The translations under genes were made by a program, and so were the position numbers. The notes beneath the pieces were generated by a model, which saw only the letters and a program-made list of their open reading frames with translations, had not been told where the DNA came from and searched no databases. From NCBI RefSeq assembly GCF_964355755.1, contig NC_092679.1, forward strand, positions 22,134,432 to 22,198,431: a DNA stretch of 64,000 nucleotides, read 5' to 3'. This stretch comes from Antedon mediterranea. Taxonomy: Eukaryota > Echinodermata > Crinoidea > Comatulida > Antedonidae. Below are positions 4,272 to 30,200 of the stretch, piece by piece (position 1 is the stretch's first letter; each line of letters opens with the position of its first letter).

Positions 4272-7200
4272 ATGATGTCATTTAATTCGGCTCGTATATG
4301 TGGCTTGACTGTTATAACGATGATGGTGTTTAGTTGTTTACCAGGAGCCACAATGTACAACATTTTCTCACCATTTGATGTCTTCACGGAACAATTCCAG
4401 AGTATTGCAACGCATCACAACGGTATTCATCGTCGACAAACAGAATGTGACGTTTCACTTTGTGAGTACACAGAATGGAGTGAGTGGACGTTTTGTTATT
4501 GCGCTATTTGCAACGAGTTCGATAACTCTACGCGTAGGTCTTGTCTGCGGCTTAGGACTGTCTCGTCTTCACCAGACGGTTGTGAGAACGATGAGTGTGA
4601 AGGCGACGCTATCGGTGAGCTTCAGTGTTTTGAGGAATGCTGTAACACGTTTTGTGGGGTCACCGAGTGGAGTGAATGGTTCCCTTGTAATAACACCTGT
4701 AACAAAACTGGAGTTGAATGGAGGAGTCGTTCCCCGTACCCTAACGAATGTTTTGAGACATGCGATTTTGAAGAAACAAGGCCATGTGATAATTACTGTG
4801 AGGTTGGAGAATGGTCGGAATGGGCTTGTTCCTGTGAGTTATGCGAGCCGGATTACTACACGAACGAAACTATTACAGATCCGCTTATTTTTTACGACGG
4901 TAATGAAACGTTACATCGTAATTGCACCCGAAACGGATCAGCCATCATGCCAGATCTATGTGAAGATTGTGACGTCGTGTTTGAAGAAAACGTTTGCATG
5001 GAGAATTGTTCTTGTGATAGTAGTCCAGGATGTTCCGTTAATGATTGGGAAAGTTGGTCAGAGTGCTCTGGGACATGTGGGGGTAGTCAAGTCCGTATTC
5101 GTTCTTACAGTGGAGATTGCACGGCACCTCCTTGTGTTGGCACGCGACAGTCACGCGCGTGTACCTTATGCCCCACGTGTACTCCATGTGATTACTCCGA
5201 ATGGAGTCAGTGGAGCACGCAGGTGACTTGTGCTCTATGTGAAGATAATATTGAACTTTCAAACTTTAACACACGAACTCAAGCCGCAAGTGATGATAAT
5301 TGTGACGGAGAATGCCCCGAAATCCAAGAAATACAATGTGGTGAGACTTGTTGCGATGAATTTTGTCCGCTAACCGACTGGTCCGAATGGTCACAGTGCC
5401 CTGAACCATGCGGTGGTTCTCAAACGCGCACGCGAGAGCCTATAAGCAGGCCAATTTGTTTAGGCGAACCATGTAGTGATACGGAAGAAGTGTTGGAATG
5501 CACAGTGTGTAGTGGGTGCGACTTGTGTGATTTGTCTGAGTGGACCTCTTGGTCTTGTTCATGTCAAGCATGCGATCCAACCGACACAGAACTCCATAAC
5601 CAATGCTCAAGGACCAGGTTTGCTTTGAATGATTGCGACACTTCCTGTTTTGATTCAATAGAAACATCATGTGATCAAACGACCATCTGTTGTGATGAAC
5701 TCTGCGTTATCGACTCTTGGAATAACTGGGGAGCGTGTACCCAATCGTGTGGAGGGTCCAGGAATAGAACAGCCCAATACGATGCAGCCTTATGTCTGGG
5801 TGAGCCTTGTCAAGACACATTTGAAACGGAGCCCTGTGTGCCGTGCCCTACAACCGAATGGAGTGAATGGAGTTGTTCGTGTTCGTTATGTCAGACCACA
5901 GTAAGCTTAGCTGATGTCTGTATTCGAGAGAGGGCTTATAGCACAGACAACCAGTGCAATACAAACTGCTCTGAAATAATTGAGGCAATAGGTTGTACTG
6001 ATCCGTGTTGTGATACTTTCTGCCTTCCCAACCAATGGAGTGAATGGAGTGGGTGTCCGGAACCATGCGGAGGTACAAGTAATCGAACACGTACATACAC
6101 AGCTTCATTTTGCTTAGGTGAACCGTGTGAAAGTTTGTTCGAAAGTCAAGAATGTCAAACATGCCCCAATTGCCAGCCTGTTGATTGCGTTTTAACAGAA
6201 TGGACAGAATGGTCTCAATGTAACAGCACTTGCGACTTTGGTGTCCAGTCTCGGTCACGAGAAATATCGGTAAATCAAGATTGCGGTGGTGCGGACTGTC
6301 TATCAGATACATTAGAAGAATCACGTGATTGTGAAGGTGAATGCCAGTTGGAGGAGTGGGGTAGCTGGCAGTGTGTTTGCTCATTATGTACGGGATTTAC
6401 GGACAGCTTGTACCAGGTCTGCACACGGGAACGTGACGTCACTGGCCCAAACTCATGTGAAAGCGCAGACTGTGGCGTAACCGTAGAATCAGGCTGTACA
6501 GAAAAATGCTGTGATGCGCTTTGCTTCGTTTCGGACTGGTCACCATGGTCGGAATGTTCTTCAGGTTGTGGTACTGGTCAATCTGGAATTCAAAATAGGA
6601 CAAGAATATATAATGAAGCTTTCTGTATTGGAGAACCTTGTGAAACTATATATGAAGAAACTGTATGTACACCAGATACATGTTGTCCAGTCGACTGTGT
6701 AACTACACAGTGGAGCAATTGGGCTACGTGTAGTGTCTCATGTTCATCAGAAAGTGGAACACGTACTCGTGATAGACAGGTTACACAAGGTACATGTGGA
6801 GGCACCACATGCACTGACACAACTACAGTAGAGTCACAAGCATGCGTAGGCGGATGTCAACTACAAGAGTGGACTGCATGGTCATGTGCATGCTGGTTCT
6901 GCAACACAGGAGATTCTGTCTTCAGTAATGTCTGCTCCCGCGAGCGACAAGAAATTGGAACTAGTTGCAATTCCGTATGTGGTAGTTTAAGTGAAACTGT
7001 ATGTGGGGAGGTATGTTGTGACACCGGGTGCTCTGTGAGTGAATGGACCACGTGGAGCCCATGTGACCAGCCATGTGGTGGTGCAACTCTTGGAAATGAG
7101 ACGCGAACGAGGACGTATAATTCGGCATTCTGCATAGGAGAACCTTGTGATGATTTAATAGAATCGCGGACTTGTACTCCTGATTGCTGTGCAGTAGACT

Positions 7201-8390
7201 GCATATCTTCAGAATGGTCTGAATGGTCTAGCTGCTCAGTAATCTGTTCTGACGCAACAGGTTCAAGATCTAGGTCACGTGCGAATCAAGAAGCGGTATG
7301 CGGGGGTACACCGTGTGAAAATGATATCACAACAGAAACAGATAATTGCCAAGGAGAATGTGTATTGTCAATTTGGACAGAATGGACTTGTTCTTGTAGT
7401 CAATGTAACCCAAGTGCCAATGATGATTATCAATATTGTAATCGAACTCGAACTGAGAGTAATGGGTTGGCATGTGGGGGTGAATGTGGTGACCTTCTTG
7501 AAGAACAATGTGGAGAAGTATGTTGTGATCCAGATTGCAGTGTTTCTGATTGGGGAGATTGGACGGATTGTAATGTACCATGTGAGAGCAGCTCGTCCGG
7601 TATCAGTCAAAGGTTTCGAACAGCAGTTGGAACATGTTCAGCAGTGCCATGTCTAGCACTAGATGAAACTATAGCATGTCAGGCTTCTTGCTGTCTCAGA
7701 GATTGTGTTCTTCTCTCCTGGATGGAATGGACCACTTGCACGTCCCTCTGCACCAATACACCGGGCATCCGAAGTAGAACACGGCCAATTGTGCAAGGAT
7801 CGTGTGGAGGAAATCTCTGCACAGAAACCGACTACACTGAAAACGGTCTATGTTATGGCAGCTGTGACGTTAGTAAATGGTCAGACTGGTCATGTGTATG
7901 TGGTATCTGTAGCGCTGGCATCTTACAAGATATATGTAGCAGGTACAGAAATGAATCAACTGATGTCAGTTGCATTGGACAATGTGGGGCTTCTACTGAA
8001 TCCGTTTGCGGTGATGAATGTTGTGACGATTTATGTATCGTAGGCGAATGGACGCAATGGACAGACTGTAGTGAACCGTGCGGTAGTGGTAACACAGGGT
8101 TACAGACAAGACAAAGACACGTGATATCGCAGACATGTCGTGGAGACCCATGTGATCAGTTGCTGGAAACAAGAGAATGCTTTCAGGGTTCTGGGTGTTG
8201 TCCTGTTGATTGCGAACTTGAATTGTGGTCTAAATGGTCTGGATGCAGTTCTAATTGTTTAAACGTCATTGGAAACGAAACTCGTACTCGTGACATCATC
8301 ACGCCTGCCAGCTGTGGTGGAACATCATGCGAGAGTAATGTTCTGGAATATAGAAACTGTTATGGCACAACATTTCCTGCAAACTGTATC
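4272..8390 (+). CDS. Exon 1 of the chimeric gene: signal peptide and 23 TSR modules
   Basis: This single 4119-nt exon encodes 1373 residues with no intron. After a hydrophobic leader (LTVITMMVFSCLPGA) comes an unbroken array of 23 Cys-rich modules, each opening with a WxxW motif such as WSEWS. Three classes are visible. A modules have W..WSCSCSLC, then C.R.R, and end in CCD..C. B modules have W..WS.C..PCGG, an R.R pair, and a C(L/I)GEPC block. C modules begin VDC..(T/S).W, have CGG..C, and end C.G.C. The order is A-B four times and then A-B-C five times. Known TSRs carry C-mannose on WxxW and O-fucose on CxxS/TCG; many B modules here have CPEPCGG or similar and so lack the fucose acceptor. 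Antisense and out-of-frame ORFs over this exon are by-products of its composition. Confidence 0.88.
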
Positions 8391-11300
8391 GTAAGTTTCA
8401 ATACAAGATTATATTCCATATTTGTATTAGAATGGCCACTTCCTATGCTACACGTTGTCTACCCCACATTTCATTACACCTACACCTACATATCACACAA
8501 ACCCCACCAGCTATTTTAAATCTTGAACTCTTTAATGTAGGAGGGTGCGTGGGCCAACTGGAGTCCATGTGCTTTGGACACGGGTTCATGTGGTACTGGA
8601 AGCCGCCTGAGGACCCGAAGCGTCATCTCTGTAGCCGTATGTGGAGGTTTGCAGTGTGGGCAGACAACAGAAACTGAAATCTGCGATGGGCCTTGTTGTC
8701 CGGTTGATTGCGAGACGACGGCGTGGACCGAATGGACTGGATGTTCTACTGAATGCGGAACGGGTCAACAGTATGTGTACCTTTTAAGTTTATAAAAATA
8801 TACTTTTAAAACTTCGCGTAACTAAAAAGCCTTCCATATCTCGTAGTTTTAAAACTGACAATAAAATCTCTCTAATTGTTTTGTAGAATGCGATTTCGAA
8901 TGATCACAATCAGTGCAAACTGTGGAGGAGTACAGTGCATTTCAACTTTCGAACGGCGTGACTGCATAGGTACTGGGCCTAGTATCTGCGAGTTCACGGA
9001 TTGGTCAGAGTGGACAATATGCTTATCGTCGTGTGGACTAGGATGGCAAACCCGGAGTCGGTCGATTCTGACGCCAGCTATCTGTACAAACCAATGTATA
9101 TCGACAGTAACTGAAGAAAACCAAGAATGTGAACGCTATGTGAACGTTGATTGCCAGGTTAGTGGGAGATTTCGTTATTTATATTATAATATAACTTTTG
9201 TTCATATCGTTCAAAATGCTACCTTGTCGATGAAATGAAAAATGTCGAAAGTCTCCAGAATTGGTTCTACCAGGATCGAATGTCAGCATTCAAAATCCAT
9301 GTACTGTGGGGTTTCAACAACATCCTAAACTGTTCATACAATTTTTCGTTTGTAGGTAGGTGAATGGAGCCAATGGGGTACATGTGTTCCAGATTGTTCG
9401 GGCTTTATGAAGTCTAGGAGCAGAAACATAATCGTGGGTAACTCTTGTAATGGAGACATTTGTCCTTCACTATCAGTAAGTAATATAAAATAATAGTATA
9501 ACGATATAACCATAGTGGTTTGTAACTTCAGATCAGGTTAACATATACTAGGACTAAAGCTGTCTACACTATCAAACTTTATGTGACAAAACATGTGATG
9601 TGCCCATATGGACATGATGATGTCATATCACTACCATATTTGGGCATATCACTACCATATTTGGGCATATCACTACCATATTTTTATAGTGTAAACATAC
9701 TGTAGCTTAATACGTCTGTACCTTCACTAAAACGCTTTTTTTTCATTATTCAGGAACAGAGCAACTGCAACATCTTCTGCCAACACACATGTTCAGTGAA
9801 TGAACAATGTACTTGTAATCCGGGTTTCAAACTAACAGGAACCTTTGCGACAGAGTGTGTCCCTGTCACATGCCAACCACCATTCTTTCACTCCTGTCCG
9901 TTGAGTTTGACAACGAATGTCGTGACGTGTGTGCCCCCAACCACGAGTTGCGGCACGGGAAGTGCGTATGAGTACGGTCATACTTGCCAGTTATTGTGTG
10001 AATCAAGATCTGGTTATACATATCAATTGATGGGGGCCAGTCCGGGGTATATAGAGTGTTTAGCGAATGGGCAATGGAGTTATTACAGTGAGGTGTATTG
10101 CACCATTGTCAACAGCCCGCCAATAGGGGTAATTATTTTACTTTATTCGGATGGTATTGATATATCGATGATACAGATTGATTGTGATTATGATGATAAT
10201 CAATCAATCAATCAATCAATAATTTTTATTTCTCAAATAAAAACAAAAAACAGTTAACATTTTCTAAAAATAATAGATAATAAATGAGAAAAAGGGGTAC
10301 CCCACAGGAAGCTTAAGCTTTAAAATGTGGGGTCCTGGCAACATAATTAAAGATAAGGTAAGGTAAGAAATATATATAATAACTGATGATGATAAAGATG
10401 ATGATGATGATGATTGGTACAATCATGATGATAATGACGATGGGATATGATGTTGATAACGATGACTACAGTATTAATTAAAATAATGTTACCGTACATA
10501 GTGGACATTTACTACTTCTTATTAACGAATATGATCATAAATTGAATGATGGTCATAAGGTCATAAGGTCATAAGGTCATAAGGATGAGGACGATGATAT
10601 TGATAGAAGTTTTACTTTTAATTTAAAACTAAATATTTCATAGCTGACCACGTTTAGTGGCAACACAATCTTGGTGGAAGAAAATACTTTTGGGAATGTG
10701 TTGGCGGTGTTAAAAACTGAAGATGTTGACTCCACATGGGATGCTTACACATACACAGTTATTGATGACGTACACAACATTATTAATATTATCGATAACC
10801 AAATATATCTATGCCATGTTTTGGATTATGAATTGCAAGACAGGTTAGTACACAGTTATTGATGACGTCATCATCAGTTACTTTCGATAACTAAATATCT
10901 ACGCCATGCTTCGGATTATGAATTACAAGACAGGTTAGTACAAAGTTATTGATGACGTCATCATCAGTTACTTTCGATAACTAAATATCTACGCCATGCT
11001 TTGGATTATGAATTACAAGACAGGTTAGTACACAGTTATTGATGACGTCATCATCAGTTACTTTCGATAACTAAATATCTACGCCATGTTTTGGATTATG
11101 AATTACAAGACAGGTTAGTACACAGTTATTGATGACGTCATCATCAGTTACTTTCGATAACTAAATATATCTACGCCATATTTTGGATTATGAATTACAA
11201 GACAGGTTAGTAGGCCTACACAGTTATTGATGACGTCATCATCAGTTACTTTCGATAACTAAATATATCTACGCCATGTTTTGGATTATGAATTACAAGA

Positions 11301-14300
11301 CAGGTTAGTACAAAGTTATTGATGACGTCAACGTCAATTACTTTCGACAAGACATGCAAGGTAATCGATTTGAATTTAATTATTAATCAATCAACCAATT
11401 AAGCAGAGTAGAGGAAAGATCGATTGAATATAACTTAGAACTTACTAAAATTAATGATAATTTTGAATATCAAATTGTTTTTATATAGATATACGGTTAC
11501 CGTAAGATCAACGGATTTAGCAGGAAACTTTATAGACCAGGAACTCACTTTTCAAGTAACTGATGGAAATGATCCACCCACCGGAGTGACGGTATGTATA
11601 CCATAACCACCATAAATGTGCCCATGTATGGAAATTGTATATCGCACTAGTTGAAAGTCTTAGAGCACATTGTTGTTGTGAACCGAGCATTATAGTATAA
11701 TGACGAATATGTTCTGTTTTTTAGATTTCAAACGATAGAGTTTCCGAGAATAGCATTGTTAACACCGCTGTTGGGTTTCTTCAAGCCGTGGACCAAGATA
11801 CGGGGCAGTTATATACATACTCCCTTGTCGATAACGCTCACGGAAGATTCAGGCTCTCGGACAATTTTCTACAAGTAAGACAATTTGAATATTTGTTAGT
11901 TTAAAAACTAAAACTAAAGGTCTATTTTGTACTAGGAAACTTTAACGAACTTTTGTTAGGAAACCTTAAGTTTGGTTAAGGTGTACGACTTCCGTTGCAC
12001 TTTGCCAAAGTTTGTCAACTATACTATTTTACAGACGGCTATGACAAATGTCGAATGCGAACTACTCTTCAACGACGCATGTTTTAACTATGGCACGCAA
12101 ACATACCATGACGTCATAGTATCGGTTCAAGATAACGGTAATCCGATGAAGATCGAGTACCATACTCTCAGAATACACATTGAAGAACCAAGCCAGATAC
12201 CTGTAAATCTACAAATATCATCTAAGGTGATTCAAGAGTCTTCCGCAACAGGTATGTTGTTTTCCTAAATTGTTAGATTAGTGGCAACGAGCTCGGCTGT
12301 CTGATTCTCGATTCGCCAATTACTTTTAGTACGGTGGTACACGCAATTTCATTTAAAGCTCGGTTCCCACTAGGACTCAACGTAAGGACATAGACGCAAC
12401 GCAAGTGAGTTGACCAATCACACGTGACTGTTCGAGTAATCCATCGCTTGAGATTGGACAAATCACTTTGCGTTGCGTTACGTCCTTGCGTTACGTCCTA
12501 GTGGGAACCAAGCTTAACAGAGGTTCGTCAAAGAAAATCCAACGATTGGCAATGTGCCGCAATGCATTACATGAATGAAATTTCTTGGAAAAGTAGACTA
12601 ACTGAATGCTTGACATTATGGGAGCAGGCTGGTTCCTCCTCCTTCCCTCGACTTTATTCCCGCACATTTCCAGTCATATGTTTAACTCTAAGTCATTAGA
12701 AGCGAGCAAGCATTCAAAGTAAGTTCTTGTTTGTTTTTTTTCCAGGTACTGTGATTGGTGTTGTATCCACAGACGACACCAATGAAGGCATTCGGTATGT
12801 CTACAGTCTGATCGACAATTATGGCGGTTTGTTCAAGATTGATCCAACAACTGGTGCCATTATCTTACAAGATTCTACGCGTATTAACTACGCAACGCAA
12901 AGCGCGTATCCAATACAAGTAATGGGTGTTGATCAAAACGACCCGACACATACAGTAGGTCACAACAATGTTTTTTTTTGTCTTTCGTGGGAGCAACCAT
13001 TTTATTTCCTCTCTTTTTTAATTACGTAAGGTATCGATACTCTTACATATAAGTTGACACAATTGATAAGAATGAATGTGTTAAAATGCCAATACAGTAC
13101 TACCAATGTTTGTACCGAAATGAATAGCTCTACATTTTATAATTCCGATCAGTTGTGTAAAATTTACTTTGCAGATCACTAAAGAGTTTGTACTAGAAGT
13201 ATCCCAGAGGAGCAACTCGCCGTCTACGAGTGTTGCAATCCTATCGACATCCGAGACTGAGAACTACCCCGTTAATGAACCAATCATAGAGCCCGGTACT
13301 CAATCAGGTCGGTATACATACGAATAGATCATTATGATAAATAAGTAAATCTCGATGGTGTAAAGAATAAAGATATACTAAGATCAAGCCAATCTAACAG
13401 TTAACTCGTAACAGTCTTTTGATCTTATGTCTGGCTGCGTCAGTGACTGGACATGTGCAGTTATTGGACATGTGCACGTAAAAACTTGCGGTGCAGTTAG
13501 ACCGGCAAATAAGTTTAAACAATGGTTTTGCTTTGTATTTTTTCAGGCCAAGTAATTGGAACTGTTGTTGTGTATGACTATGAGATTGGAGATGTATCCA
13601 TCGAGGTTGAAGGAGGGAACGGTCTTTACGAAACAAGAAAACTCTATTGCAGTCCAGTCAACGGACATGAAATGGTAAGTTGCAAAATAAAGCATGAGCA
13701 TTTAATAGTTTTATTTTCATCAATTATCGACGATATAAATAGTTGAAACTACATATATATCTGCCATTAGTGAAAACTAATCACACCAGAGTAACGAAAC
13801 ACGATCATAGTATCATGAAATTCAATAAACTATGATTAACATGACAATTTATGTTTTAAAGGGTTACAGAACAGTTTGTGCATATGATTTATACGTCACA
13901 AGCGACTTCACCAGTACGTCAGAAGGGAGTACCATTACAATGGCCTCAACTAACAGCGTTGGTAAGACGACTAGGCATACGTACAACATCGGAGTCGCAT
14001 CAAGTGGTGTACAGGAATCGACGGATGCCATGGTAACTGCGCATGCGACGACTGCACCTCGAGTAACGCCAAATCCACCAGTACGTCTTTTTTTTTATGT
14101 TAAAGGGTATCTCCGGGTTTGGAATTTCTATTGTGTATTAAAATACCTTTGCAACTTATTGTTCGACAAGCGTCGAAGCAGCATGAGCATTGTGAAATAA
14201 GGTTCTTAAAAAAGTTAATGTAGCCGATTATCCACTAGGCGAATTCCAACACTTCGCAGATGAAAAATCGCGTTACCCTTTCCACTACAAGAGTGAATAG

Positions 14301-17300
14301 GCCTAAAACTACCAGATTGTTAGGCCCTAAAGTCGAATAAGTTTACAGGAAATAACAAACTCTTACCTTTCACATTTCAGATGTTAGTCTTTTCTGGTGA
14401 TTCTAGTCCGTCAGAATCTCTTTCCAGCAACACGCCAATCGGTTCCATCACAACGACCGATTTCTTTAACCAATACACATACAGAATTGTAGGTGATACA
14501 GATAATATATTCCAATTACAAGACAATGTGTTATATCTATCCTCTGCGGCTCAACTCGATTATGAAACAGCGAGCAGACACGAAGTAACAATACAAGCGG
14601 TCCAGAATGGTAATCCATCGAATACAATACAGATGACGTTTAGCTTTCAAGTGGAGGATACCAATGAAGCTCCCACAAGTATTCATTTTTCAAACAATCA
14701 GGTATACGTCACAAATTCGTTTATGAATATAGCACAGCCGAATTTTGTTTAATCCCAGTGGATACTTTTTGCGATTATAAATACAATGAACTTCCTATGT
14801 CGTTTTAACAAAATATTTCCTTATTTCTATTCTGATAAGATGAAAATATCTTTTCTTAAACGTAGGTTGAATTCGGTGCATCAGTTGGTACCAGAGTTTC
14901 TACTATATCTGTTAACGATCCTGACAATGCTGATGGATTGGTTCAAGATTCGAATTGCTTTATTACCAGTGACGATAGCGGTGTATTCACAATAAATGGA
15001 CATTCACTAGAGGTTTGTAAATACCATAATAGTTGTATACACTTTCACTGTGATCCCGTGTTTAGTCTTAGTTACCCGGGTTGGTCTCAATGGCACGGCT
15101 ACCGCTAACATTGGTAGGTATTAACTTGCACGGGTAAATAACTAAGCATAATTCCTATGTAATATGTTTATGAAGAGTGCTAGAACTAAAGCTGTGTTCG
15201 GACTTCACGTGTAACCTAAATTATTCGTGTAACTCCGACCTTTTGTATTTCCCTCCAAGACAACAAGACCATTAATTCCAGGCCAGTCAATCTACTTCCT
15301 CCAAGTACGTTGTGTTGACAGTGGGACACCAGCGATGTACGTCGATAGTCAGCTTGTTATAGACGTCCTGGTGGACGACCCGATACAAATAGACGTGATT
15401 CTTACGGATTACATACCATTTGAAGAGAACGTTGATCCGTTACCAATTGGAACGTTTCACGTCATAGACGCAGCTACCGGGCAGCCAATCACAGATACGG
15501 TAAGTAATCAATTTTACTATTTCTATTTCGAATTCAATATAGGCCTACTAAGCGCAAATGAGCATACACGGATTTTTCCAGTTTTATTAATTTCAATAGT
15601 TTTTTTAGAAAATAACATATTAAAAACTTCTTATTTTAAAGAACTTTGAATATTTCATGATGTTTATGGGAGAAAGAGTCCCATTGACTGTCGAAGGCGA
15701 TCAGCTTTGGACGACAGGTCCTCTCAATTACGAAGAATTGCCCAAGATTGACGTCACTATTCACGCGCGCGGTACGGATAGTTACGGTCGTGAGTTGACA
15801 ACTGCGCAAGTGTTTCAGGTACGTATTAAAACCATAATTTATTTACAGCAACAGAAAGTTTTCGATTTTAGCCGACCGACGTCATACCTAGGTCAGGTCA
15901 ATCGATGTGTCGTCGGTCGTCAACACATCTTTGCGCAGGTTGTGTTACGTTGCGTCGGTAGTGGGAACCAAGCTGTAGACGTAACTTCAATATATGATCT
16001 TATGTAACCCAGGTTGATGTTTTGGACGTGTGGGAAGAACCAACAACAATTCACTTTGAAACGACAAACACACATATAACTACTGAAAGTAAAAATGGTG
16101 ACGTCATTGGAACTTTTGTCCCAACTGGCGAGGACACAGATTACAGTGACGTTGTGTTTACAGTTACTGGTGTCGAAAGTGCAGGGTAAGTACACATTTT
16201 ATTATAGTAAAACCTTTATTCACGGGACGTACTCCTATTCAGGTGACATACTCCTATTCAGGGAACATACTCCTATTCAGGTGATGTACTCCTATTCAGG
16301 AAATACTCCTATTCACGAGACACAGTATTCTGTGAGCTTGGGGACAGCGAACGAATGAGGGGTACTGTTCGTGTTTTAACACTGTGGCCAACCCACGGGG
16401 ACATCCTTATTCAGAGGACACATCTATTAGGGGACACTTTCTGTCAAATAAACGAGAGGCAATATGTTGTAACACTGCGAAACCCCACTATTCAGGAGAC
16501 ACTCTTATTAAGGGGACACTTAGTGTAGAAATTATGGACTGTTTAGTCCAGAAAGTGTTCCATTAATAGGGTTATACTGCACATTACAATGCATTTTTTT
16601 CATTTGGAGGCGACACAAGTATTAAAAAAAATCATTACTAATTTTACAGTGACATTACAGACCCAAATCTTCTTGATCTCGTGACAATGGATGGAAACGT
16701 ACTGCGCATGGGCGAAGGAATAGACTACGTTTCGTTCGATGGCGACTCGGAAGAGTACGTCATTTACATCACTGCTTCTAGTACCAGTGATCCAAACTGG
16801 AACACTGAACTTGTACACGAGATGGAGATCTTTAGGATTAACCATCCACCGACAGATATTACAATTGACAATGCTGTGGTATGTTATGATGCGTAAAACT
16901 ATATTTTCAATAACTTTCTACACACAATATTGATGATTCAATTACATAAGCAGGGTTTTGACTTTGTTTAAAGTACCATTGGTTTTCTTATGGTTTCTTT
17001 CTAAAGGTTGGTTCCCACTAGAACGTAACGCAGAGACGTAAACGCAACGCAAGCGTTTTAACCAATGACAAGCGAAGTTATAGACAGTTAGCACTCACAA
17101 GCGAATAAGCCATCGCTTGTGATTGGTCAATTCACTTGCGTTGCGTCGCTAGTGAGAACAACGCTTAATGTAATAAAAAATGTTGTGAGCTTAGCACTAT
17201 ATTTTCAATAACTTTCGACACAAATATATTGGTTATTCGGTACAACTACACAAGCAGAGTTTTGACTTTGTTTAAAGTATCATTGTTTTTTTACTGTTGC

Positions 17301-20300
17301 TTTTTAAGGTAATGGAAAATGTTGCGATCGGAACTCATGTAGGATACTTAATGATAGTTGATCCAGATATTGATGAAGAGGCCACTTGCCAGGTTCTAAA
17401 TACAAACCAAGTTCCATTTGATGTAAGACAGATATATAGTTTGGGTGATAATTTTACCAGGGAGTTGATTTTACTTAGACGTTGGAGTCGACACCATGTT
17501 GCTTCAAATATTAATGCATTTTAGAAGTTCGGTGTCGACGCCAGGTTGTTCAAAACATTTCCGTAGACGTTTGGATTCAATGCCAGGTGGCTCCAAAACA
17601 TTGCAGACGTTTCGAGTCGTCGACGCCCGGTCGCGATATTTCTTTTCGTACATAAGTTGAGGACCCCTCGTGAAACGTCACAAAATAAACATGAATATTC
17701 ATTAGTCATATCCATAAGGTGTGACGTAAGAATCGAGCTAACTACAATTCGCTATTGTAAACGATTTCTGTCGAGCCGTCTGTGTAGTCGAGTGGATAAG
17801 ACTATGGACTTTACATGTCGATGTATGGGGTTCGACTCCCATGAGCTACTTCTTTTACTTTATAGTGAGAGAGAGATTATTTGGAGGGTTAGGTTTAGTT
17901 ATATTTAGGAAGTAGTTTGGCTATCTTTCACATGGGGTCCCCAACTTATGTACGAAAAGAAATATCGCCGCCCGGTCACTCCACCACACGTTGATGTAGA
18001 CCTTTGCCTCAATGCCATATCGCTCACAACGCCAGGTGATAGATACAAACTTTAATGTAGACGCTTGGATTCAACGCCATGTGGCTCAAAACGTTTATGA
18101 AGACGCTTGGATTCAACGCCATGTGGCTCAAAACGTTTATGAAGACGCTTGGATTCAACGCCATGTGGCCGGCTCCAAACGTTTATGAAGACGCTTGGAT
18201 TCAACGCCATGTGGCTCCAAACGTTTATGAAGACGGTTGGATTCAACGCCATGTGGCTCAAAACGTTTATGAAGACGTTTTGAACCGACGCCAGGCACGT
18301 CAATACATTCTATTTCTTACAATTTACGTCAAAGCATAAATATTTTGTTTTATTGTTTTAATTTCAGATTGCTGATTCAAACGAGCTTATAACGTCGGGT
18401 CCTTTGGATTTTGAAACCTTTCACATCAATTTGGTTGAGGTAATACATACATTAGGCCTACATTCGAAAATGACCAATTATGGTAATGGCGAGTTAGTGT
18501 TTTGTCTGTTACCACGTCATTTTGTCTTCGCAGATAGAATGCAGCGATTCCGATGGCTTATCCTTGACTAAGACGATCGAAATCAGCATTAAAAATGTTC
18601 TAGAATCTCCAAGCTTTCTAAGTCTAAGCAAACTTGAGGTCAACGAAGACGCACATGAAGGAGAGAGTGTAGGTCAAGTGTACAGCCTCATAGAACAGGG
18701 TCATTGGGTGAGGTACAGCATAGTTCAGGAGGATGTTCCGTTTGACATCGCGGGAAATAACACGTTGGTGCTCACAGATACAGTGAACTACGAAGATGTT
18801 TCAAGATACGATATTACGGTTGCTGCCGAATTGGGAGACAATCCGTCGCTTGTAACTTATGCAAACTTCTCGATCACGGTAAGGCAATCAAACAATCAGA
18901 AGGCTACACTAATACTTTTTTTATATTATATATATTACTTTAAATAATTATATATTAGTTTGTACACTCACATTATCAACTTCATTTCTAGAGCTCTGTC
19001 TACACTATCAAAGTAGTTTGACAAGAAAATGTGATTTGCCTAAATATGGTGGTGATATTTAAAGTAATTTTAATATTTTCAGGTTCAGGATCTTAACGAC
19101 CCACCAACGTCTATCCAGCTCTCTCCAAGTAGCTTTTCCATTCCAGAGAATGCTATTGATGGTACGGTTGTCGGATCTTTCACCACAATAGACGAAGACG
19201 ATGGACAAAGTCATGAATACCGTATACTATCAGATGTACAATTAACTGGTATGTATTATTAGACATATTTCAGGTATTATGTTGGAAGTTTTTTAGACCA
19301 GAATAGTTGTTATCGCTTCCATTAATGACCTTTACTTTCGGAAAAGAGAGGTAGTAATTTATACAAAAGATTAATATTCGCTTATATCTTCAGTATACAT
19401 GGTTAAGTTCACACAGAACTATGCTTGATGATGATTAACGTTCGTCCTTCCTCTACCATCCCGAAAACTCACTGTTCACACGTAGTACGACGAACACCAT
19501 AAGACAGTATCCATAACGCTTCTAATTCTTTTAGTCAACTGCCAATCTCATATTCCAACGCGATGACTGATTTAAGGTCCATTTACACTTGGCCTCTAAA
19601 ATGTTGATAAGCATCGAATGTATAGTAACTTTTACTAAATCTTTTCTTGAATGTGTCAATATTAGGTGCGTTTCGAATTGAAGGAAACCAACTAGTCATC
19701 GTGGAAGGCAGTGCCATAGATTATGAAAGACATCAATACATTGATCTTCTCATACAAACAGTTGATGATGGAAATCCAGTCCACTCATTTAAGGTATCGA
19801 CCCTAATTGTGTCAATTTGTTCCAGTAATATCTATAAAATTAGAGGGAAATTGCGATTGGATCGATTGGGTATACCGCTGGTGGTGGTGCTAGTTTTCCT
19901 ATGTTTAAACAGTATCTTATCAATAGTTATTTGGTTTAAAAAATAACGGAATAACTAATTAATTCGCTTTTTAATTTCAGGAAATGATACGTATACGAGT
20001 TATTGATACAGGGGAACCACCACAAGACATCATCTACCAAACACCAACACTTCCTGAGAACAGTCCAGCAGGAACATTGGTGACGCGAATTCTGGTCGAT
20101 GATCCAGACAAAAACGAAGAACACACCTGCTCTATCATTAGAACAGACATTCAGTCTGGTCTATTTGACGTAATCAGGACGTCGAATAATGATATTAGGT
20201 TGGTTGTGGCAGAAGGAGGTGATATTGATTACGAGACCAGACCATACCATCGCGTGGAAGTGGAATGTGGAGATGGTTACAACTGGATTCGTAAGGTACG

Positions 20301-22406
20301 ACTTGTCATCACTTTAAACCTACCACTGACATCTGGTTACATGAGCGTTCCTTTATGGTTGCATCATTATAACGATAAGAATTGCTTCTTTGTAGACTAT
20401 AACTGTCTTTGTTGATGACGTCAATGAACCACCTGAAGGAGTGGATTTGGCGGGCTCTCATTCGGCACCAATTGACGCAGAGACTGGCTTTGTGGTTGGT
20501 CAATTACAAGTCCATGATCCTGATACGGACCAGCAGCATACGATCTCTGTATCAGGCGAAACTTCAAATTTGTTCAAGGTAAATTGAAATATGAATTTAT
20601 TAACTTCTTGTTTTCGAAATTTGATGAATTCTTTACCTTAATGTCGACTCTGAGCAATAATATTATCGTTTCATTTAGGTTGATGGAAATTCTTTGATTC
20701 TTGCACAAGAATTTCAAGAGGAGTTGATTGACAAGTCGAACCCTTTCCTACAAGTGATACTGAAAGTCGTAGACAACGGCCCTAACATGTTATCAAGAAC
20801 TCAAGCATACACTATTGGCATTACAGGGTTGATAGACTTTGATCTACAAGGAAATGAGGTATCTGAGCTAGCCCTCGTAGGTCAACCGATTGGGCGTTTT
20901 ACGTCCGATTTAGGAGGAGAGTATGAGCCACCTCAATACCGGTTGATGGATGATGCGGATGGCAAGTTCTCCTTAACAGATGATAACATACTGGTTCTTT
21001 CAGATGTAGTGGATTACAGAGAGAGTCCTTATTTATTTTTAGAGGCAGAAATGCAAGTTGGGGATGTTAAAGAGACGAGGGTGTTCCGTGTATCAGTCTT
21101 GTCAGAGGATTCATGCAGTACGGGTTTAGCACAATGCCTTCCTCACTCCTCATGTGTAAGGTTGTCAAAGGCTGAATTTGCCTGTGTGTGCCATCCTGGC
21201 TACAAGGACATCAATAACCAGTGCTTTGCTGTTGATGACTGTGCAACACTTAATGGTAATCCGTGTATGTACAATGCACCGTGTTGGGACGGTGTAAATA
21301 GCTTTAGTTGCGTCTGCTTGATTGGGTATCAAGGAAAGCTTTGCGAGTTGCCACCACTGGATCCATGCAACTCGCAACCGTGTCTCAACGACGGTACGTG
21401 TCTGTACAGTTCCGACTACACACATTACGTGTGCCAATGCAGGAGTAGTTACACCGGAGACAACTGTCAGAATGGAGTAAACGATCAGCCATTGTGTAAA
21501 GACGTTGATTGTGAAGTTGGAGACTGCATCCAAAATGGTGATGACGTCATGTGCCAATGCCCTTCGTCTCATTACGGAATCAAGTGTCAGTTTGCATCTG
21601 GCGTTTGTTCAGATAATTCTTGCAATTCAGACGAATATTGCATTCCTCACATCAGAGCTCCCGATATGTTTATATGTGCGCCGCACTCGGAAAGCGTTGA
21701 TATCAACTTCTTAAATGAAAACTTAGGCTCGGAAACAACAGACCCATTTGTTCAGTATAAATTTAACAGCTTCGTAGAGTCTACGAATGAACTTCCTGAC
21801 CTCTATGTTCTATTTGCTTCAAATACGCCAACCAATGTATCTATCTTGGTGTTCTTCATTATCAATGAAGCTGTAACGTCCGTTCTCGAAGGTGACTACG
21901 TATCATGTGTTTTATACGACAGCTGTGTTGACTCAGGCGCAATAGACGAATTCTGCCCAGATATACTTGATCAATTTGTAAGTCTTTGCGGCCCAGAGAA
22001 AGTTGTCGCTACTGAAGAGACAGGAGATTACCTTTGGATATCTCTGCTTTCACTTTCGCTAGCCTTCTGTTTAATCATCCTCCTTATCATTCTTGCTTAT
22101 AAACGATGTTCTAGAAGGAACTCTGTCATCCACACCTTTGAGCCAATCATAACAAAACAAGAAGGTATACGGTACATCTCCCATTTGCAGCAGAGTATAA
22201 CAGGATCCTCCAAAGACAACACTTTGACGGGATCGGGAACCAGAATGACGGGCGATTACGAGTATTTCACAGACACTGCTAGACGACCGTCCAGACTGTT
22301 TCGTAGGTCCTTATTCCCAGGTGGCATGGAGAATGCCAGAAGCCAGTCTGATGGCCAGTTGGCACAGCACATGTATGCAAATAGAGAATCAAACAATAGA
22401 TTGTAA
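4272..22406 (+). CDS. Chimeric TSR / sushi / cadherin-like / EGF transmembrane protein
   Basis: I do not recognise this gene as a named family. Exons: 4272-8390, 8541-8770, 8887-9157, 9356-9475, 9754-10128, 10644-10843, 11489-11591, 11725-11874, 12035-12251, 12746-12954, 13175-13307, 13547-13674, 13862-14080, 14381-14701, 14866-15012, 15260-15499, 15642-15818, 16013-16185, 16650-16878, 17309-17422, 18368-18439, 18534-18878, 19083-19248, 19666-19793, 19981-20295, 20396-20578, 20679-22406. They sum to 10812 nt (3603 residues plus stop) with matching phases and GT-AG ends throughout. Order: signal peptide (about 1-27); about 27 TSR modules (to about 1580); EGF-like plus CCP-like exon (1581-1705); about 14 cadherin-like repeats (1706 to about 3170); five EGF-like modules (about 3171-3362); a juxtamembrane region; a transmembrane helix (about 3479-3502); and a tail of about 100 residues. 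A cell-surface adhesion or receptor role is inference. Weakest junctions: the GTCGGT donor at 13308, the acceptors at 13861 and 15259, and the donor at 17423. Confidence 0.85.
9555..9703. mobile_element. MITE family 2 copy in intron 4 of the chimeric gene
   Basis: The left end reads AGCTGTCTACACTATCAAAC, followed by a TGTGACAAAA / GTGATGTGCCCATAT inverted core around GACATCATCATG. The right end (TATAGTGTAAACA) is degraded, and the piece ATATCACTACCATATTTGGGC is tandemly repeated just before it. It matches the copies at 41996, 47981 and 18991. Confidence 0.7.
9754..10128 (+). CDS. Exon 5 of the chimeric gene: EGF-like plus sushi/CCP-like linker
   Basis: This exon (375 nt, phase 0 at both ends) joins the TSR and cadherin halves. 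It starts with a short Cys-rich EGF-like piece (CSVNEQCTCNPGF). A segment with sushi/CCP features follows: a CQPP opening, four or more further cysteines, a G-Y-IEC block, and a closing NGQWSYYSEVYC. Its 0-0 phase would let it be shuffled as a unit. The CCP call rests on Cys spacing and the terminal W...C and is moderate. Confidence 0.65.
10195..10620. repeat. Possible LINE tail remnant and GAT/AAGGTCAT simple repeats
   Basis: The interval starts with CAATCAATCAATCAATAAT, resembling a degenerate LINE 3' tail, and includes a palindrome around CCCCACA...TGTGGGG (about 10299-10333). It continues into GATGATGATGATGAT runs and a four-fold TCATAAGG repeat near 10553-10583. No coding sequence was found. 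Confidence 0.5.
10841..11345 (+). repeat. 90-bp array made from an exon 3' end and its splice donor, with CRE palindromes
   Basis: The word CAGGTTAGTA, which spans the donor of exon 10644-10843, recurs at 10841, 10931, 11021, 11111, 11203 and 11301. The period is 90 bp, then 92 and 98 where small insertions occur. Each unit copies the last ~85 nt of that exon in altered form, including TTGGATTATGAATTACAAGACAG (read as the DYE-type cadherin motif in the real exon), the GT donor and the first intron bases. The copies are frameshifted, contain stops in the parental frame (TAA after TTTCGA) and have no evident acceptor, so I treat them as intronic. Each also carries a perfect TGACGTCA, at 10863, 10953, 11043, 11133, 11231 and 11323. 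Confidence 0.88.
12353..12517. mobile_element. MITE family 1 copy in intron 9 of the chimeric gene
   Basis: This is a palindromic element of about 157 bp. It begins GCTCGGTTCCCACTAG and ends CTAGTGGGAACCAAGC, and TTAA lies on both sides (12353-12356 and 12514-12517). The interior repeats ACGCAACGCAAG on one arm and its complement on the other, around a CCAATCAC / TGATTGG-type core. No coding sequence is present, so it is non-autonomous. Confidence 0.8.
15888..15974. mobile_element. Truncated MITE family 1 copy
   Basis: Only one end is preserved: GTGTTACGTTGCGTC followed by GGTAGTGGGAACCAAGCTG. It lies in the intron before exon 16013-16185, and no partner end is visible. Confidence 0.55.
16210..16615 (+). 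repeat. Degenerate repeat of 'CTATTCAGGGGACAC' words
   Basis: Short irregular repeats of ACTCCTATTCAGG(T/G)GA recur five times at 16225-16315. They are followed by spaced variants (TTATTCAGAGGACAC, CTATTAGGGGACAC, CTATTCAGGAGACAC, TTATTAAGGGGACAC). Related words occur at 56330-56520, 59413-59450 and 61450-61610, so this looks like a dispersed, decayed repeat family. No transposon ends are visible. It lies in intron 18 of the chimeric gene. Confidence 0.55.
17003..17168. mobile_element. MITE family 1 copy in intron 19 of the chimeric gene
   Basis: It begins GGTTGGTTCCCACTAGAACG and ends CTAGTGAGAACAACGC followed by TTAA. The interior is almost identical to the copies at 44541 and 59633 (CAAGCGTTTTAACCAATGAC ... 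TTGTGATTGGTCAATTCACT). Confidence 0.75.
17475..18302 (+). repeat. 42-bp minisatellite in intron 20 of the chimeric gene
   Basis: A unit reading GACGCTTGGATTCAACGCC, then ATGTGGCTCAAAACG and TTTATGAA, recurs six times from about 18056 to 18300. Degenerate units lie at 17475-17632 and 17980-18055. The TIR element at 17633-17968 splits the array, so the array is older. Because 42 is divisible by three, both strands show open 14-residue periodic frames, but nothing suggests they are translated. Confidence 0.85.
17633..17968. mobile_element. Non-autonomous terminal-inverted-repeat element with a tRNA-like core and 9-bp target duplication
   Basis: The two ends are long inverted repeats: the left begins GCGATATTTCTTTTCGTACA and the right ends in its complement, with about 34 matching positions running to GGACCCC / GGGGTCC. 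The 9-mer CGCCCGGTC flanks it on both sides (17624-17632 and 17969-17977), a perfect target duplication. The length is 336 bp. Inside, 17784-17839 carries an A-box-like word (GTAGTCGAGTGG) and a B box (GGTTCGACTCC) at tRNA spacing. A 9-bp duplication with long TIRs is typical of Mutator-like elements; that family assignment is inference. The element sits inside a 42-bp-type minisatellite. Confidence 0.8.
18991..19061. mobile_element. Partial MITE family 2 copy
   Basis: It begins AGCTCTGTCTACACTATCAA and runs on as AAGAAAATGTGATTTGCC and TATGGTGGTGATAT. The second half is missing. It lies in the intron just upstream of exon 19083-19248. Confidence 0.65.
20679..22406 (+). CDS. Last exon of the chimeric gene: final cadherin-like repeats, EGF modules, membrane helix, tail
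   Basis: This exon (575 residues plus stop) carries the last one and a half cadherin-like repeats and then EGF-like modules. These are CSTGLAQCLPHSSC... (calcium type uncertain), DDCATLNGNPCMYNAPC..., DPCNSQPCLNDGTC..., LCKDVDCEVGDC... and a shorter CSDNSCNSDEYC piece. About 115 residues without clear homology follow, with hydrophobic SILVFFIINEA and later cysteines; this could be a SEA-like or cleavage region, but I cannot show that. The transmembrane helix starts LWISLLSLSLAFCLIILL and is followed by a basic stop-transfer KRCSRR. The tail is Ser/Thr/Arg-rich (RRPSRLFRRSLF) and has GDYEYF, a possible tyrosine site. AATAAA lies at 22779. Confidence 0.85.
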   Translation, partial: VDGNSLILAQEFQEELIDKSNPFLQVILKVVDNGPNMLSRTQAYTIGITGLIDFDLQGNEVSELALVGQPIGRFTSDLGGEYEPPQYRLMDDADGKFSLTDDNILVLSDVVDYRESPYLFLEAEMQVGDVKETRVFRVSVLSEDSCSTGLAQCLPHSSCVRLSKAEFACVCHPGYKDINNQCFAVDDCATLNGNPCMYNAPCWDGVNSFSCVCLIGYQGKLCELPPLDPCNSQPCLNDGTCLYSSDYTHYVCQCRSSYTGDNCQNGVNDQPLCKDVDCEVGDCIQNGDDVMCQCPSSHYGIKCQFASGVCSDNSCNSDEYCIPHIRAPDMFICAPHSESVDINFLNENLGSETTDPFVQYKFNSFVESTNELPDLYVLFASNTPTNVSILVFFIINEAVTSVLEGDYVSCVLYDSCVDSGAIDEFCPDILDQFVSLCGPEKVVATEETGDYLWISLLSLSLAFCLIILLIILAYKRCSRRNSVIHTFEPIITKQEGIRYISHLQQSITGSSKDNTLTGSGTRMTGDYEYFTDTARRPSRLFRRSLFPGGMENARSQSDGQLAQHMYANRESNNRL

Positions 22407-24208: not shown

Positions 24209-27200
24209 TTAAAGTGAGTTGCTTGAGATCATATTGGTTATTTCAATTCTGGAAAATTAAAAAGCACAACATTTAATAAATATAATAGTATGACAAATAT
24301 GATAGAATATAAGAGACATTATTAAAACTAGAGGGCCAACTGTGAAACATAGCTGCCGTTTCCGTTAAAAAATATATCAGCATCGGAGACTGATGACCTG
24401 GGAAAGTTAGGTCATGTCAATTCATAGCATGCATACGGGGAAGTTCTGACTTGCTTGATCGCTCTATTCTTCAATACAGGTTTAGTAGTTTCTAGGACCG
24501 ATGACAAATCAATAGATTCAGATTCGATTTATTAAGTCATTCATACATTGTACAATGATAATTGTTTTCTTGGCAGAAAAACACAAACAAAACAATACAC
24601 ACATAATATTTACATTCGTGATCAACATGGAACTAACACCTGATCAAATAATATAAAATACAAAAGACCTAATATAATAGTAGTCGCAAATTATCTAATA
24701 TATTCTGGACAAAAAAAAAATGGACAAAATAAAATAAACACAAAGCAAAATGTTGTTGAATTATGCATCAACAAATATTTTAGTTCCTTTACCTTAATTC
24801 TCGTGGAAGTAAATATGTGTCGAGATTATTTTCAATTACAACCAACTGACAAAGGGTTTTTAAACTTGGCTCTTAAGGAAAGAAGAAAAGGTACCAGTAA
24901 GCAATCATAGCAAAAACAAAATCGAGAATGTTAATGGTTTGGAAAAAGGAGGAGAGGCCTACAATTGTGATAGTTCTGAACTTAACATAAGACATAGGCA
25001 AATATTATATCATAAACTCCTTTCAAATATTTTGAAGATTTCAGTAAATGTAATGCATTCGAAAAGACTTTGCACCAACTCAAGTTTGAGTACCCATTGC
25101 AGTCCATTCCAGACCCTCTCACAGTCTAACATCATTATGGAAATTAGCCATCTTTTGTAAAATATATTAACAGAAGAAAATAAAAATACAGCAAAATTTT
25201 ATTTTCCTAATCTCAATACAGTATTAATTTTTTGTAAAAACGAAGAAAAAGAAGCACTTTTTTAAGGAACGAACACATTTTGAAAATGGGTGGCTAATGT
25301 AATTTAGTTCTCATGGCCTAATGTCATACATTTTATATTGTTTTTTCTCCAGTTTAGTTGACCTCTTGAGATTATCAATCCTTATCATTTCGTTGCAAAA
25401 TAATTAATTAATAATAAAATAATTTTTTAATTCTTACCAAAATCTAGTATATACAAGTCATCCATGTCCTGTAGATGGTCAATTGAGGTAGACTTTGATG
25501 TTGGGCTAAATAAGAAAATAAAACCAGTAAACTAGCTTAATTAAATTGTTTTCAATTCTTCTTTCATACTTGTTTACATTTTGACTTTTTACAAAAATTA
25601 AAAGTGAGTTAAGGAGGAAATTGATGTCAACCTGAAACTAAAATAAACTCAATTAATCTTAACTTTCCTGAAATGAAGTAGTTGCTTGAGGAACCGATTG
25701 TAACTAGTTGTGATTACCATACCAATCGCGAGATGATTCCTAGAATTAGTTGTGCTCAGTTACTGTCAGTTCCAAGAAATATGTAGACTCTACTACTGTG
25801 GTCAATTCTAAATATTTTGCATTACTTGAGTTGAAATATGTTGCTTTCAGTTGCTCAGATTTATGTTGACATAACTGAGTTGAGTTCATAAGCCCACCTG
25901 ACCTCTGAACTTTGAACTTTTAAGATTGGAAGAAAACCACTAATGCACTGAAAAAACCCATGAAAGAAAATTACAATATTCACCTTGTTCCACCAAACAT
26001 GATTAGTTTGCTGTCCATCATGACACAGCATTGTCGACGCCGTTGGCATGGTTTCAACACCCCTTGAACTTTAACCTTTGACCATTCCATTGCTTTGGTA
26101 TCAAATTTATGAATTGTGTCAAAATGTTGATTAGTGACACGATTGTAGCCTCCAAATATGTACATATTGTCTTTGTAAACAACTATAGAATGATAAACAT
26201 AACAAAACGTAAAAAATAAATAGTAGAAATAAAAAATATATAATTTCAGATTCTATGCTACAGCAAAGTGAGGTGATAAGGAGATGACCCTGAAAAGGGT
26301 TATCTGTTAAAAAATGTATAGGTACAATATATATATAAAACTTGAAATGACCCTCCTTCCCGACCTTTGATGCTAAATCGACAAACACCACATGAATGGG
26401 AACTAGGGGAAGACATACATATTTGGAGGAAATCCTATTTGTCGTTCGAAACTAGTAGCGTTGCAAAATGAAACAGAACCCATTCAATATTTTTAAACTA
26501 AAATTTAGAGATATTTCATCTTACCAGGAGGGGTAGAACGACTCGAAATATAGGGAAGTCCCTATGCTTATTTGTTATACTTACAAGCTGAGTGGCTCCT
26601 CCTTCCAATAGGTCGATTCCTTGATATTGCTGGTTGAGTCCATGTTTTATTCTTTGTGTCAAATACTGCTAATTCGTTACTGTAAAATTCCATATTTGTG
26701 AACACTGGGCCATTTAAATCTGACCTTCCACCAAATATATACATGTATTGTCCTATGGTTACAGCTGAGTGGAAATCTCGCCAATGTGCTGGTCTGCCCT
26801 GTATGGTGACAGACAAAAGTTCTTTTCTTTTGATGTCATATTATGATGTCATGTCACCAGAAGTATTTACAGTATGTCATACAGTATGGTAATTTAAATA
26901 TGCTAATTTTTGGAAACTTTTATCATATGTTCTTCTTTGTAATATGATGTCATAAGAGAATTATTATGACAGTATTTACACTATGTCATATGGTAATTTA
27001 AATATGGTAATTTAAATATGCTAATTTTTGGAAACTTTTATCATAATGTTCTTTTTTGTAATATGATGTCATAAGAGAATTATTATGACAGTATTTACAC
27101 TATGTCATATGGTACTTTAAATATGCTAATTAGAAACTTTTAGGTGGCCTAAAACCAATTGAGATAGTGGACTTCAAAGTATACAATTTTTTTTTAATTA

Positions 27201-30200
27201 TCTGCTCGACAGCAAATGGTAGGACGCAGAAGATTCCAGGTTCGAATCTTGATTTGGGTGGTTTTTTCTCATTCTCTAAGACTTCCTCATTTTAAACGTT
27301 TTATATATTAATTAATTTTAATTATATCCCTTGGTAATTAGGAGTGTTTCTATGCTCTATGAATTTATAATAAACAATTATGATATAAGAAAAATAAATT
27401 CATACCTTACATTCAAGTTTTTTCCATCTCATTTTATCTATATTCAATTTATGAACAGAGTTTGAAAAACACTGTGACTGAAAAAAAAAACAAGTCTGTA
27501 AAAGAAAGTGTATACATTCGCTGCTGCCATGGTTTCTTGTACGTCATAGAAAATAGAGGGCGGTACAACGCTGTCAAAATTCATAAAGAGACTATAATAC
27601 GTACCTCATCTTCATATCCACCAAATACATACATCTTATTTTTAATGAGACAGACAGAGTGGCCATCTCTAGCCGGTGGGATATCGCCAGAAGGTTTAGG
27701 TAAGCACCATTTAAAAGTTGCTATAGGAATGAAAATAATACTGAATTAAGTTAAATTAAATTGAATTAAGCAATATTTAGCTTAAATTAGGGGTGAGATT
27801 ACACTTAACCATGGGATTCTACTGTATCTACTACTCATAGTAAATACAGTATATGATCGCAAAGTTTGTATGCAGGAAGTTAATTGGTTACAACCAATGA
27901 TAAATTGTCCAGAAAAGAGTGGGGGATTGGTATAGTAGCACAGAACAGTACAGAACATGAGTAGCAGTTCCTGGAAATTAGAGTACAAAACTTATTCATA
28001 CTGGACATAAAAAAGAGACAATCACAACAAAGTGAATGCCAAAAAAACAGACTTGTTGTTGTTTACTTACAGGTTTGAAAACAATACAGCTCATTACAGG
28101 CACCATCTGGGTCGTTTCTGCCCCCGAATATGTAAATATTGTCATTGTATGCGATGGCCGAGTGACCATACCTCATGAAGGGTACGCATCGAAAACTTGG
28201 ATCATGTTTCTCAACTTCGGGAAGTTTCTTCCATTTCAACGATACTAAAGAATTTAAATTGTTCTTATTAAACCAGTTATATTTACATAATATCTAGACA
28301 ATATTAAGCCATAACAAACATTTAGAAAATCTCTAAAATATCGGGAGACAGAGTTGAATAGTCGTCATCACAAGCCTGGTTAGGACCGATAAAAATTAAT
28401 CATTTAATATAGGTTTTTAGAACGTATCCCTTTTTGTATTTACCATGGGCAATGCTTGAAACTATAGTAAAAGTCAGTTTCTTTATTTTGTTACTTTGAT
28501 GAGGACAATTTAGGTGGTGGGCGGAACTGGAACTTCAGTTTTGTCAGTGTCGGTAATACCAATTGGAACAACACTTTTTAATTTTACAGTAACGTAAACA
28601 GTAGCCTAATGTTGAATAATGCAATAGTAGGGCCCAGTTATAATATATTCTCCACAACATAAAGTAAATCATAATATTTATCAAATGATAGGATTCAAAT
28701 GTTTTTTCCAGATATTTCCTGTATATTTTGTGAACTTGTAAATAGTCATTTCTAAGTATAGACATGAAAACATATTCTTGAAATTTCGCACTTCAATGCA
28801 TTCACACAATTTTTGTAAGTTTCTTTGTGAATAATTTATTGTAATGACTATAAGGAAATCCAAATCCTTCACGAGTTGTACCTCAAATTTCCAGTTTTCA
28901 GATTTATCTGTCAATTGGCTAAAGAAGACATAATTGTTTATTGGTAAGTATTTTATATGATTTTATAGACAATTATGTGCTGCACAAATAACATTGTTTT
29001 AAATACAAGAACTGGTAGGCACTGCCATGCTGGCTGCTGTGAGCCATGTAGGCCTAATCCGAATGTCCTCAGTTTCCAGTTAAGCTGTAGGACCAGATTA
29101 ATACCTTAATATGAAATTAGAAAATAGCAGGATTACTCTACTTGGGGAACAGGCGTCTATTACCCTAGGGGAACAGGCGTCTATTACCCTAGGGGAACAG
29201 GCGTCTATTACCCTAGGGGAAGCGGTGTGTTAGGCCTACAAATATGAGAGGTTGGTGATGCCTAGACATAATATGCATAATATTACCAGTAGTAACGCTG
29301 CAGATATTATTACTTTTCAGAAATTGTAGCAAAATGGATAACAGTGAGTACACAGTGGACAATACAGTGTTCATCGGGCGAGAAAAGGAAACTCAACATT
29401 TAAAAGAACTATTTTCCGACGCTGTATTGTCACCGAAATCAGAAATACGACGAGTGATAATAATTACAGGAGAACCAATGGTCGGCAAAACACGTCTATC
29501 AAAAGAAATTGGTAACCGACTGGTAAGTGATTTCCAACTTTTGGATAAGCAACTAAATGTGTATTGCATTAAACTACATCAAGTAACACATTTCAACAGA
29601 GTCCTTGTCAAGCTATCTGCAGCATTAGGACTTCCACCATGTTCTGAAAATGCACTTATAAAGCATTTCATGCAACTCAAATTTCATTGTCTACTGATTT
29701 TTGATGCGGCGGAACACTTGTCTGTTGATACGTCTAATGAGTTGCAGACTCAATTTCTAGACTTTTGTACAAGACTTGTCAATAACTCAAAAGTGTTGTT
29801 GCTAATAAACTCCAGGTTTAAATACAGGTTGCTGTCAATCCATGTTAATGTGTACCACCATCGTTTGAAACCAATAAGTATTGAAGATTCTATCAAGTTG
29901 TTAACATCCGTTGCGGAAAATGTTGGATTTGTAGATAGTATTGATAAGAAGATAGCTAAATATTGTGCCGGAATTCCGCATGCTTTAGTAATCGCTGAAA
30001 CTGAACTTAAAAATAATACATATACTCCACATGAACTCTTTGCGTTGCTAGAAGAGAATCGCTTGGAAACATTAAGTTCTGCCAATTACAGTGAAGAAGA
30101 AAATGTTTCTTTCGTCATTAAATCATCCGTCAACAAGTTAAAGTCAATAAGAAATGATTACATAAGGCTTTCTTATATTCCTTCTTCATTTACTGCTAAA

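Follow-up and report, generated by a model that had tools for sequence, protein, structure and literature searches.

A crinoid gene predicted to place a thrombospondin-repeat array on a cadherin-like stalk in a single membrane receptor

Among proteins with long arrays of thrombospondin type 1 repeats (TSRs), SCO-spondin also carries VWD, C8, TIL and CTCK modules; among the atypical cadherins, Fat and CELSR have laminin G domains and CELSR also has a seven-transmembrane (7TM) region. The nearest precedent for joining the two kinds of part is provided by the mega-thrombospondins, large extracellular metazoan proteins which combine cadherin domains and a thrombospondin C-terminal region in one chain, have leucine-rich repeats (LRRs) too, and include echinoderm members in the paper's table (PMC6526912). 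The present analysis concerns a gene at positions 4272-22406, + strand, of a 64,000-nucleotide stretch of the genome of Antedon mediterranea (hereafter the window, to which coordinates refer unless a contig is named), which lies on contig C10 of an assembly of 354 Mb in 18 contigs. We consider, with a probability of roughly 75%, that this is a single gene made by exon and domain shuffling, encoding a single-pass type I cell-surface adhesion receptor of ~3,600 residues in which an N-terminal TSR array would be carried by a cadherin-like stalk.

Each of these systems resembles the locus in part. In common with SCO-spondin and other TSR-array proteins, the gene has a long TSR array of a spondin-like Pfam type, but Pfam scans found no VWD, C8, TIL or CTCK match, and it has cadherin repeats and a membrane helix. 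As in Fat, Dachsous and CELSR, cadherin repeats are followed by EGFs and membrane anchoring, but neither laminin G nor 7TM was matched by Pfam, several repeats are degenerate and the TSR array is N-terminal. The mega-thrombospondins likewise join cadherin domains with parts of the thrombospondin superfamily; unlike them, the gene shows no Pfam match to LRR, TSP type 3 or TSP-C, the first and last of which stand for their defining LRRs and thrombospondin C-terminal region, and it carries a TSR array as well as a membrane helix. The joining of such an array to a cadherin stalk is not described in the available portions of the open-licence literature searched, which includes PMC10734073, PMC12549020, PMC7853314 and PMC6526912, and a survey of ten echinoderm cadherins contains, in its main text as available, no occurrence of thrombospondin, TSP or sushi (PMC10734073). 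An initial sequence-only reading of the window had stated that no known family joins these parts; the literature on domain combinations does not contradict this, but the mega-thrombospondins are a partial precedent (PMC6526912), and the claim of novelty is provisional because the comparison covered open-licence literature and this genome only. The locus is best described as ordinary modules in an unusual arrangement and not as a system of a new kind, the novelty being the order of familiar parts; that it is a lineage-specific receptor is plausible.

The gene was rebuilt from stop-to-stop frames, three-frame reading and splice signals, and its anatomy and domain order are read directly in the DNA. 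The model has 27 exons, 10,812 nt and 3,603 codons with no internal stop; GT-AG borders are found in all 26 introns, the frame is kept throughout and 20 of the 26 introns are in phase 0. The phase-consistent structure of the sequence-only reading was thus recovered with the same exon count and length, a match that was not blind because both figures were known beforehand. An automatic gene finder whose codon model was self-trained did not return this structure (53 segments, some of zero length, totalling 11,049 nt); its fragmented path served only as a guide, and the 27-exon model is not an independent machine prediction. Exact agreement between the two extends to 20 of the 27 exons, the others (exons 1, 6, 7, 9, 15, 16 and 27) being hand-set from frame, splice signals and repeat structure. 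The exons and features of the gene are as follows.

Exons 1-9, + strand: 4272-8390, 8541-8770, 8887-9157, 9356-9475, 9754-10128, 10644-10843, 11489-11591, 11725-11874, 12035-12251
Exons 10-18, + strand: 12746-12954, 13175-13307, 13547-13674, 13862-14080, 14381-14701, 14866-15012, 15260-15499, 15642-15818, 16013-16185
Exons 19-27, + strand: 16650-16878, 17309-17422, 18368-18439, 18534-18878, 19083-19248, 19666-19793, 19981-20295, 20396-20578, 20679-22406
4272-8390, + strand: exon 1, TSRs 1-23 preceded by a hydrophobic N-terminus resembling a signal peptide (open frame, Pfam, motifs)
8541-9475, + strand: exons 2-4, TSRs 24-27 (Pfam)
9754-10128, + strand: exon 5, with an EGF-like module at 9766-9873 and a CCP/sushi-like one at 9871-10101 (both in Pfam below cut-off), ending in VNSPPIG, where the first cadherin linker starts
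10644-20578, + strand: exons 6-26, cadherin-like repeats 1-12 and part of 13 (Pfam, own repeat profile)
20679-22406, + strand: the whole of exon 27, in which cadherin repeats 13 (remaining part) and 14 extend to 21113
21114-21590, + strand: ~4 EGFs (EGF match in exon 27; number by eye)
21591-22028, + strand: juxtamembrane region, in exon 27
22029-22100, + strand: membrane helix candidate (hydropathy)
22101-22403, + strand: 101-residue tail, followed by the stop, in exon 27
10792-11347, + strand: 90-bp tandem repeat, ~6 copies (Tandem Repeats Finder and sequence reading)

The N-terminal array is dominated by exon 1, one uninterrupted exon of 4.1 kb (open frame of 1425 aa) whose Pfam scores place it in the TSR superfamily at the level of domains: TSP1_spondin with E=3.1e-57 (191.1 bits, cut-off 41) in 14 stretches and TSP_1 with E=3.6e-15 (56.3 bits, cut-off 21.6) in 11 stretches. 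TSP1_spondin was also matched above cut-off in the frames of exons 2 and 3 (47.2 and 42.0 bits) and below it in exon 4 (33.4 bits). The figure of about 27 TSRs proposed earlier agrees with the 27 WxxW motifs counted in residues 1-1620. These motifs alternate in twos in the earlier part of exon 1 and come in threes that recur every 168-174 residues in its later part, where one of each three has an unusual start of the WxxWxCxC type. At the very N-terminus, the hydropathy scan shows a weak hydrophobic window at residue 9. An RGD tripeptide lies within one of the TSRs (8139-8147).

Exon 5 follows the array. Its second module was described earlier as sushi, and its cysteine order is CCP-like by eye, but its Sushi (PF00084) score lies below cut-off (E=0.002, 18.9 bits against 20.7), and a Pfam scan of joined residues 1541-3603 gave no Sushi match at E<=1. 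The EGF-like module preceding it (cEGF E=0.013, below cut-off) was missing from that description.

When exons are joined into one protein, the downstream part is placed in the cadherin superfamily at the level of domains: residues 1541-3603 (2,063 residues) match Pfam Cadherin with E=4.2e-53 (178.2 bits, cut-off 28.8) in 9 stretches. The strength of this score comes from the joining, since six frames of the region taken alone gave one Cadherin match above cut-off, one below and four without match. By hand, the stalk was cut into 14 cadherin-like repeats, of which repeat 4 is degenerate, in line with the earlier estimate of about 14; calcium-site motifs are seen by eye in some repeats and not in others. 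EGF was matched with E=2.6e-5 in the joined residues and E=1.5e-11 in the exon 27 frame alone. The single helix proposed by the sequence-only reading corresponds to the strongest hydrophobic segment (residues 3479-3502, hydropathy peak 3.03 at residue 3482), a weaker window being found at residues 3405-3415 (1.67-1.70). For the juxtamembrane region, structure prediction without alignment gave a mean pLDDT of 39.1, too low to be informative. No cadherin C-terminal family reached cut-off (Cadherin_C_2 E=0.092 in single frames, none in the joined protein), and Pfam gave no Cadherin_C match, i.e. no sign of the catenin-binding cytoplasmic domain of classical cadherins.

Whether array and stalk belong together depends on the join between exons 5 and 6, which involves no assembly gap (the window contains no N). 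The end of exon 5, VNSPPIG, and the start of exon 6, LTTFSGNTILVEEN, together read as a cadherin inter-repeat linker, comparable to those at other repeats (NDPPTGVT/ISNDRVSEN and TPNPP/MLVFSG), and introns 5, 7 and 13 all fall at a cadherin linker and are all in phase 0. Among 87 in-frame phase-0 GT sites of exons 1-5, only two, the true site included, have PP in the last four residues; of nine in-frame AG sites scanned from 10168, the exon start at 10644 is the only one open into exon 6. Frame and linker would likewise be preserved if exon 5 were joined directly to exon 8 (as deduced from the model), so that the one-gene reading does not depend on exon 6 alone. For a separate cadherin gene, a limited scan for one leader exon that begins hydrophobic, has a splice donor score of at least 2.9 and joins exon 6 (scanned over 9476-10643) or exon 7 (9476-11480) gave no candidate. 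With a cadherin profile of our own, for which the 12 repeats other than 1 and 4 were used, the alignment of repeat 1 (39.3 bits) already begins inside exon 5. Within the gene, the 90-bp tandem repeat sets in within the 3' end of exon 6 and copies the 5' splice site of that exon through intron 6; reading on beyond the splice site of its first copy meets a stop at 10862. Minisatellite arrays with periods of 42 and 19/38 were also seen at 18046-18293 (intron 20) and 16217-16322 (intron 18).

Relatives of the two halves were sought in the same genome, the candidate lists (best 150 of 376 for TSP_1, 150 of 347 for TSP1_spondin and 150 of 268 for cadherin) being compared by eye. The closest paralogue of the array is an uninterrupted frame of 2,538 aa with 45 WxxW motifs on contig C11, 37-50% identical in the pieces listed and also showing a three-TSR period in its motif spacing. 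No cadherin-part match was found in the 38 kb fetched around it, nor on C11 in the genome search. A weak TSR frame (TSP1_spondin 30.4 and TSP_1 20.5 bits, both below cut-off) lies beside it on the opposite strand, in the stretch C11:2894231-2903778 that holds them. An adhesion-GPCR ending for this paralogue, considered on account of a stretch near 2905550-2905720 that looks GAIN-like by eye, is unproven: it has no Pfam support, no GPS-like motif occurs on the paralogue's strand in the 38 kb and no 7tm_2 is found nearby among the matches listed. For the cadherin part, none of the 14 matches found besides itself is a close paralogue (24-31% identity), and the C-terminal query is matched elsewhere only in its residues 206-394, which cover the EGFs plus about 30 residues after them, a second copy of helix and tail not being among the matches listed; a scan of viral contigs gave no relative of exon 27. 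Among the matches listed, C5 is the only contig where a TSR match and a cadherin match come within tens of kb of each other. These lie ~24 kb apart, and a second fusion was rejected there because TRIM/NHL-like and fibrinogen-like frames (by eye) intervene and the cadherin exon brings a hydrophobic start of its own. The stretch C5:27190001-27230000 holds TSR-EGF, fibrinogen-like and TRIM/NHL-like frames and a 1,772-aa cadherin frame (names partly by eye), which look like separate genes. No other TSR-cadherin fusion is among the matches listed; a similarly weak one could be missed, since the lists are incomplete and the window's own cadherin exons are absent from the cadherin list.

Several observations weigh against a single gene and have to be set beside the evidence of the linker. 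The acceptor of exon 6 is the weakest of 26 (score 1.5, at the 57th percentile of the AGs of the gene), and the automatic gene finder picked other borders around this exon. Exon 5 can be read on into intron 5 up to a stop near 10257, and AATAAA/ATTAAA signals occur in the intron at 10236, 10279, 10346 and 10477, so that a transcript could end there. The leader scan would miss multi-exon leaders, joins to exon 8 or later and weaker donors, and one of the 26 donors of the model itself scores 2.8, under the threshold used. The score of repeat 1 is not raised by exon 5 (39.3 bits with it, 39.5 without), and the linker argument therefore stands on motif and position. Finally, TSR arrays behave as modules in this genome, the C11 paralogue having no cadherin match in the 38 kb around it. 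Two adjoining genes, the first for a secreted TSR-EGF-CCP protein that stops in exon 5 or beyond it and the second for a cadherin-EGF protein of the membrane that starts further downstream, would account for the weak acceptor, the polyadenylation-like signals and the lone paralogue, and on C5 too TSR and cadherin exons are near each other with other coding frames between. Against such an arrangement stands the cadherin linker at the end of exon 5; moreover, the limited scan found no signal-peptide-like leader for exon 6 or 7 whereas the cadherin exon on C5 has (by eye) its own, and the read-through of intron 5 ends soon without a membrane anchor (by eye). We regard it as decidedly improbable, and a single gene, with or without a short form, as highly probable. 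The earlier claim of one gene is strengthened by the linker starting in the CCP exon, by the limited leader scan and by the gapless sequence, and weakened by the acceptor at the join.

A short form is itself a possibility that overlaps the single-gene receptor: one locus could yield two products, a secreted TSR-EGF-CCP protein when polyadenylation takes place in intron 5 and the complete membrane receptor when the cadherin exons are spliced on. The AATAAA at 10236 and 10279, the open read-through to the stop and the pairing of the linker with a weak acceptor at exons 5 and 6 are all consistent with this, but AATAAA is common in AT-rich DNA; two products are, on balance, unlikely. It is highly improbable that the locus holds a divergent but otherwise ordinary cadherin from one of the known large families (Fat, Dachsous, CELSR, CDH23), with a TSR gene fused to its N-terminus only in the model. 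The cadherin part matched 52 PDB sequences, among them protocadherins, CELSR1, PCDH15, CDH23 and FAT4, and EGFs come after the cadherins, as in Fat; on the other side, apart from the Cadherin_C_2 score already given, none of the Pfam families for laminin G, hormone receptors, GPS, 7TM or catenin binding came up at the reporting thresholds, and the matches of this part elsewhere in the genome reach only 24-31% identity.

For the single-gene receptor, a working scheme can be outlined in which one transcript, a surface location, ligand binding and receptor function are all predicted from sequence. The 27-TSR array would project outwards from the cell, its later part having probably grown by duplication of a three-TSR unit, and an EGF-CCP hinge would link it to the stalk of about 14 cadherin-like repeats. 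The stalk would probably be stiff in stretches and flexible elsewhere, because calcium-site motifs are seen in only some repeats, and the EGFs, juxtamembrane region, one helix and short tail would form the anchor. By analogy with the roles of such modules elsewhere, from which the ideas on ligand binding and signalling derive, the most likely targets of the array are matrix, glycans or a partner cell, and the stalk would most likely act chiefly as a long spacer and not as a homophilic cadherin coupled to catenins. A bolder and unlikely extension is an unreported receptor class of one animal lineage, with a TSR array on a cadherin stalk and a choice at intron 5 between secreted TSR-EGF-CCP and membrane forms. 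If the single-gene receptor is real, it would represent an order of adhesion modules absent from the literature searched, tying an array of matrix-binding type directly to a membrane cadherin stalk, and would show cleanly how domain shuffling can produce a new receptor, in a genome that also has a related TSR array with no detected cadherin part.

The rest of the window holds a few recognizable frames. Two long open frames at 29259-32140, one with AAA_22 above cut-off (and weaker NACHT and NB-ARC) and the other with TPR families, are probably one STAND-like gene. Far-apart Ion_trans_2 (ion channel) exons at 35167-35598 and 62244-63227 are two-pore potassium channel-like by eye, and a Kelch-repeat frame lies on the - strand at 25980-26252.
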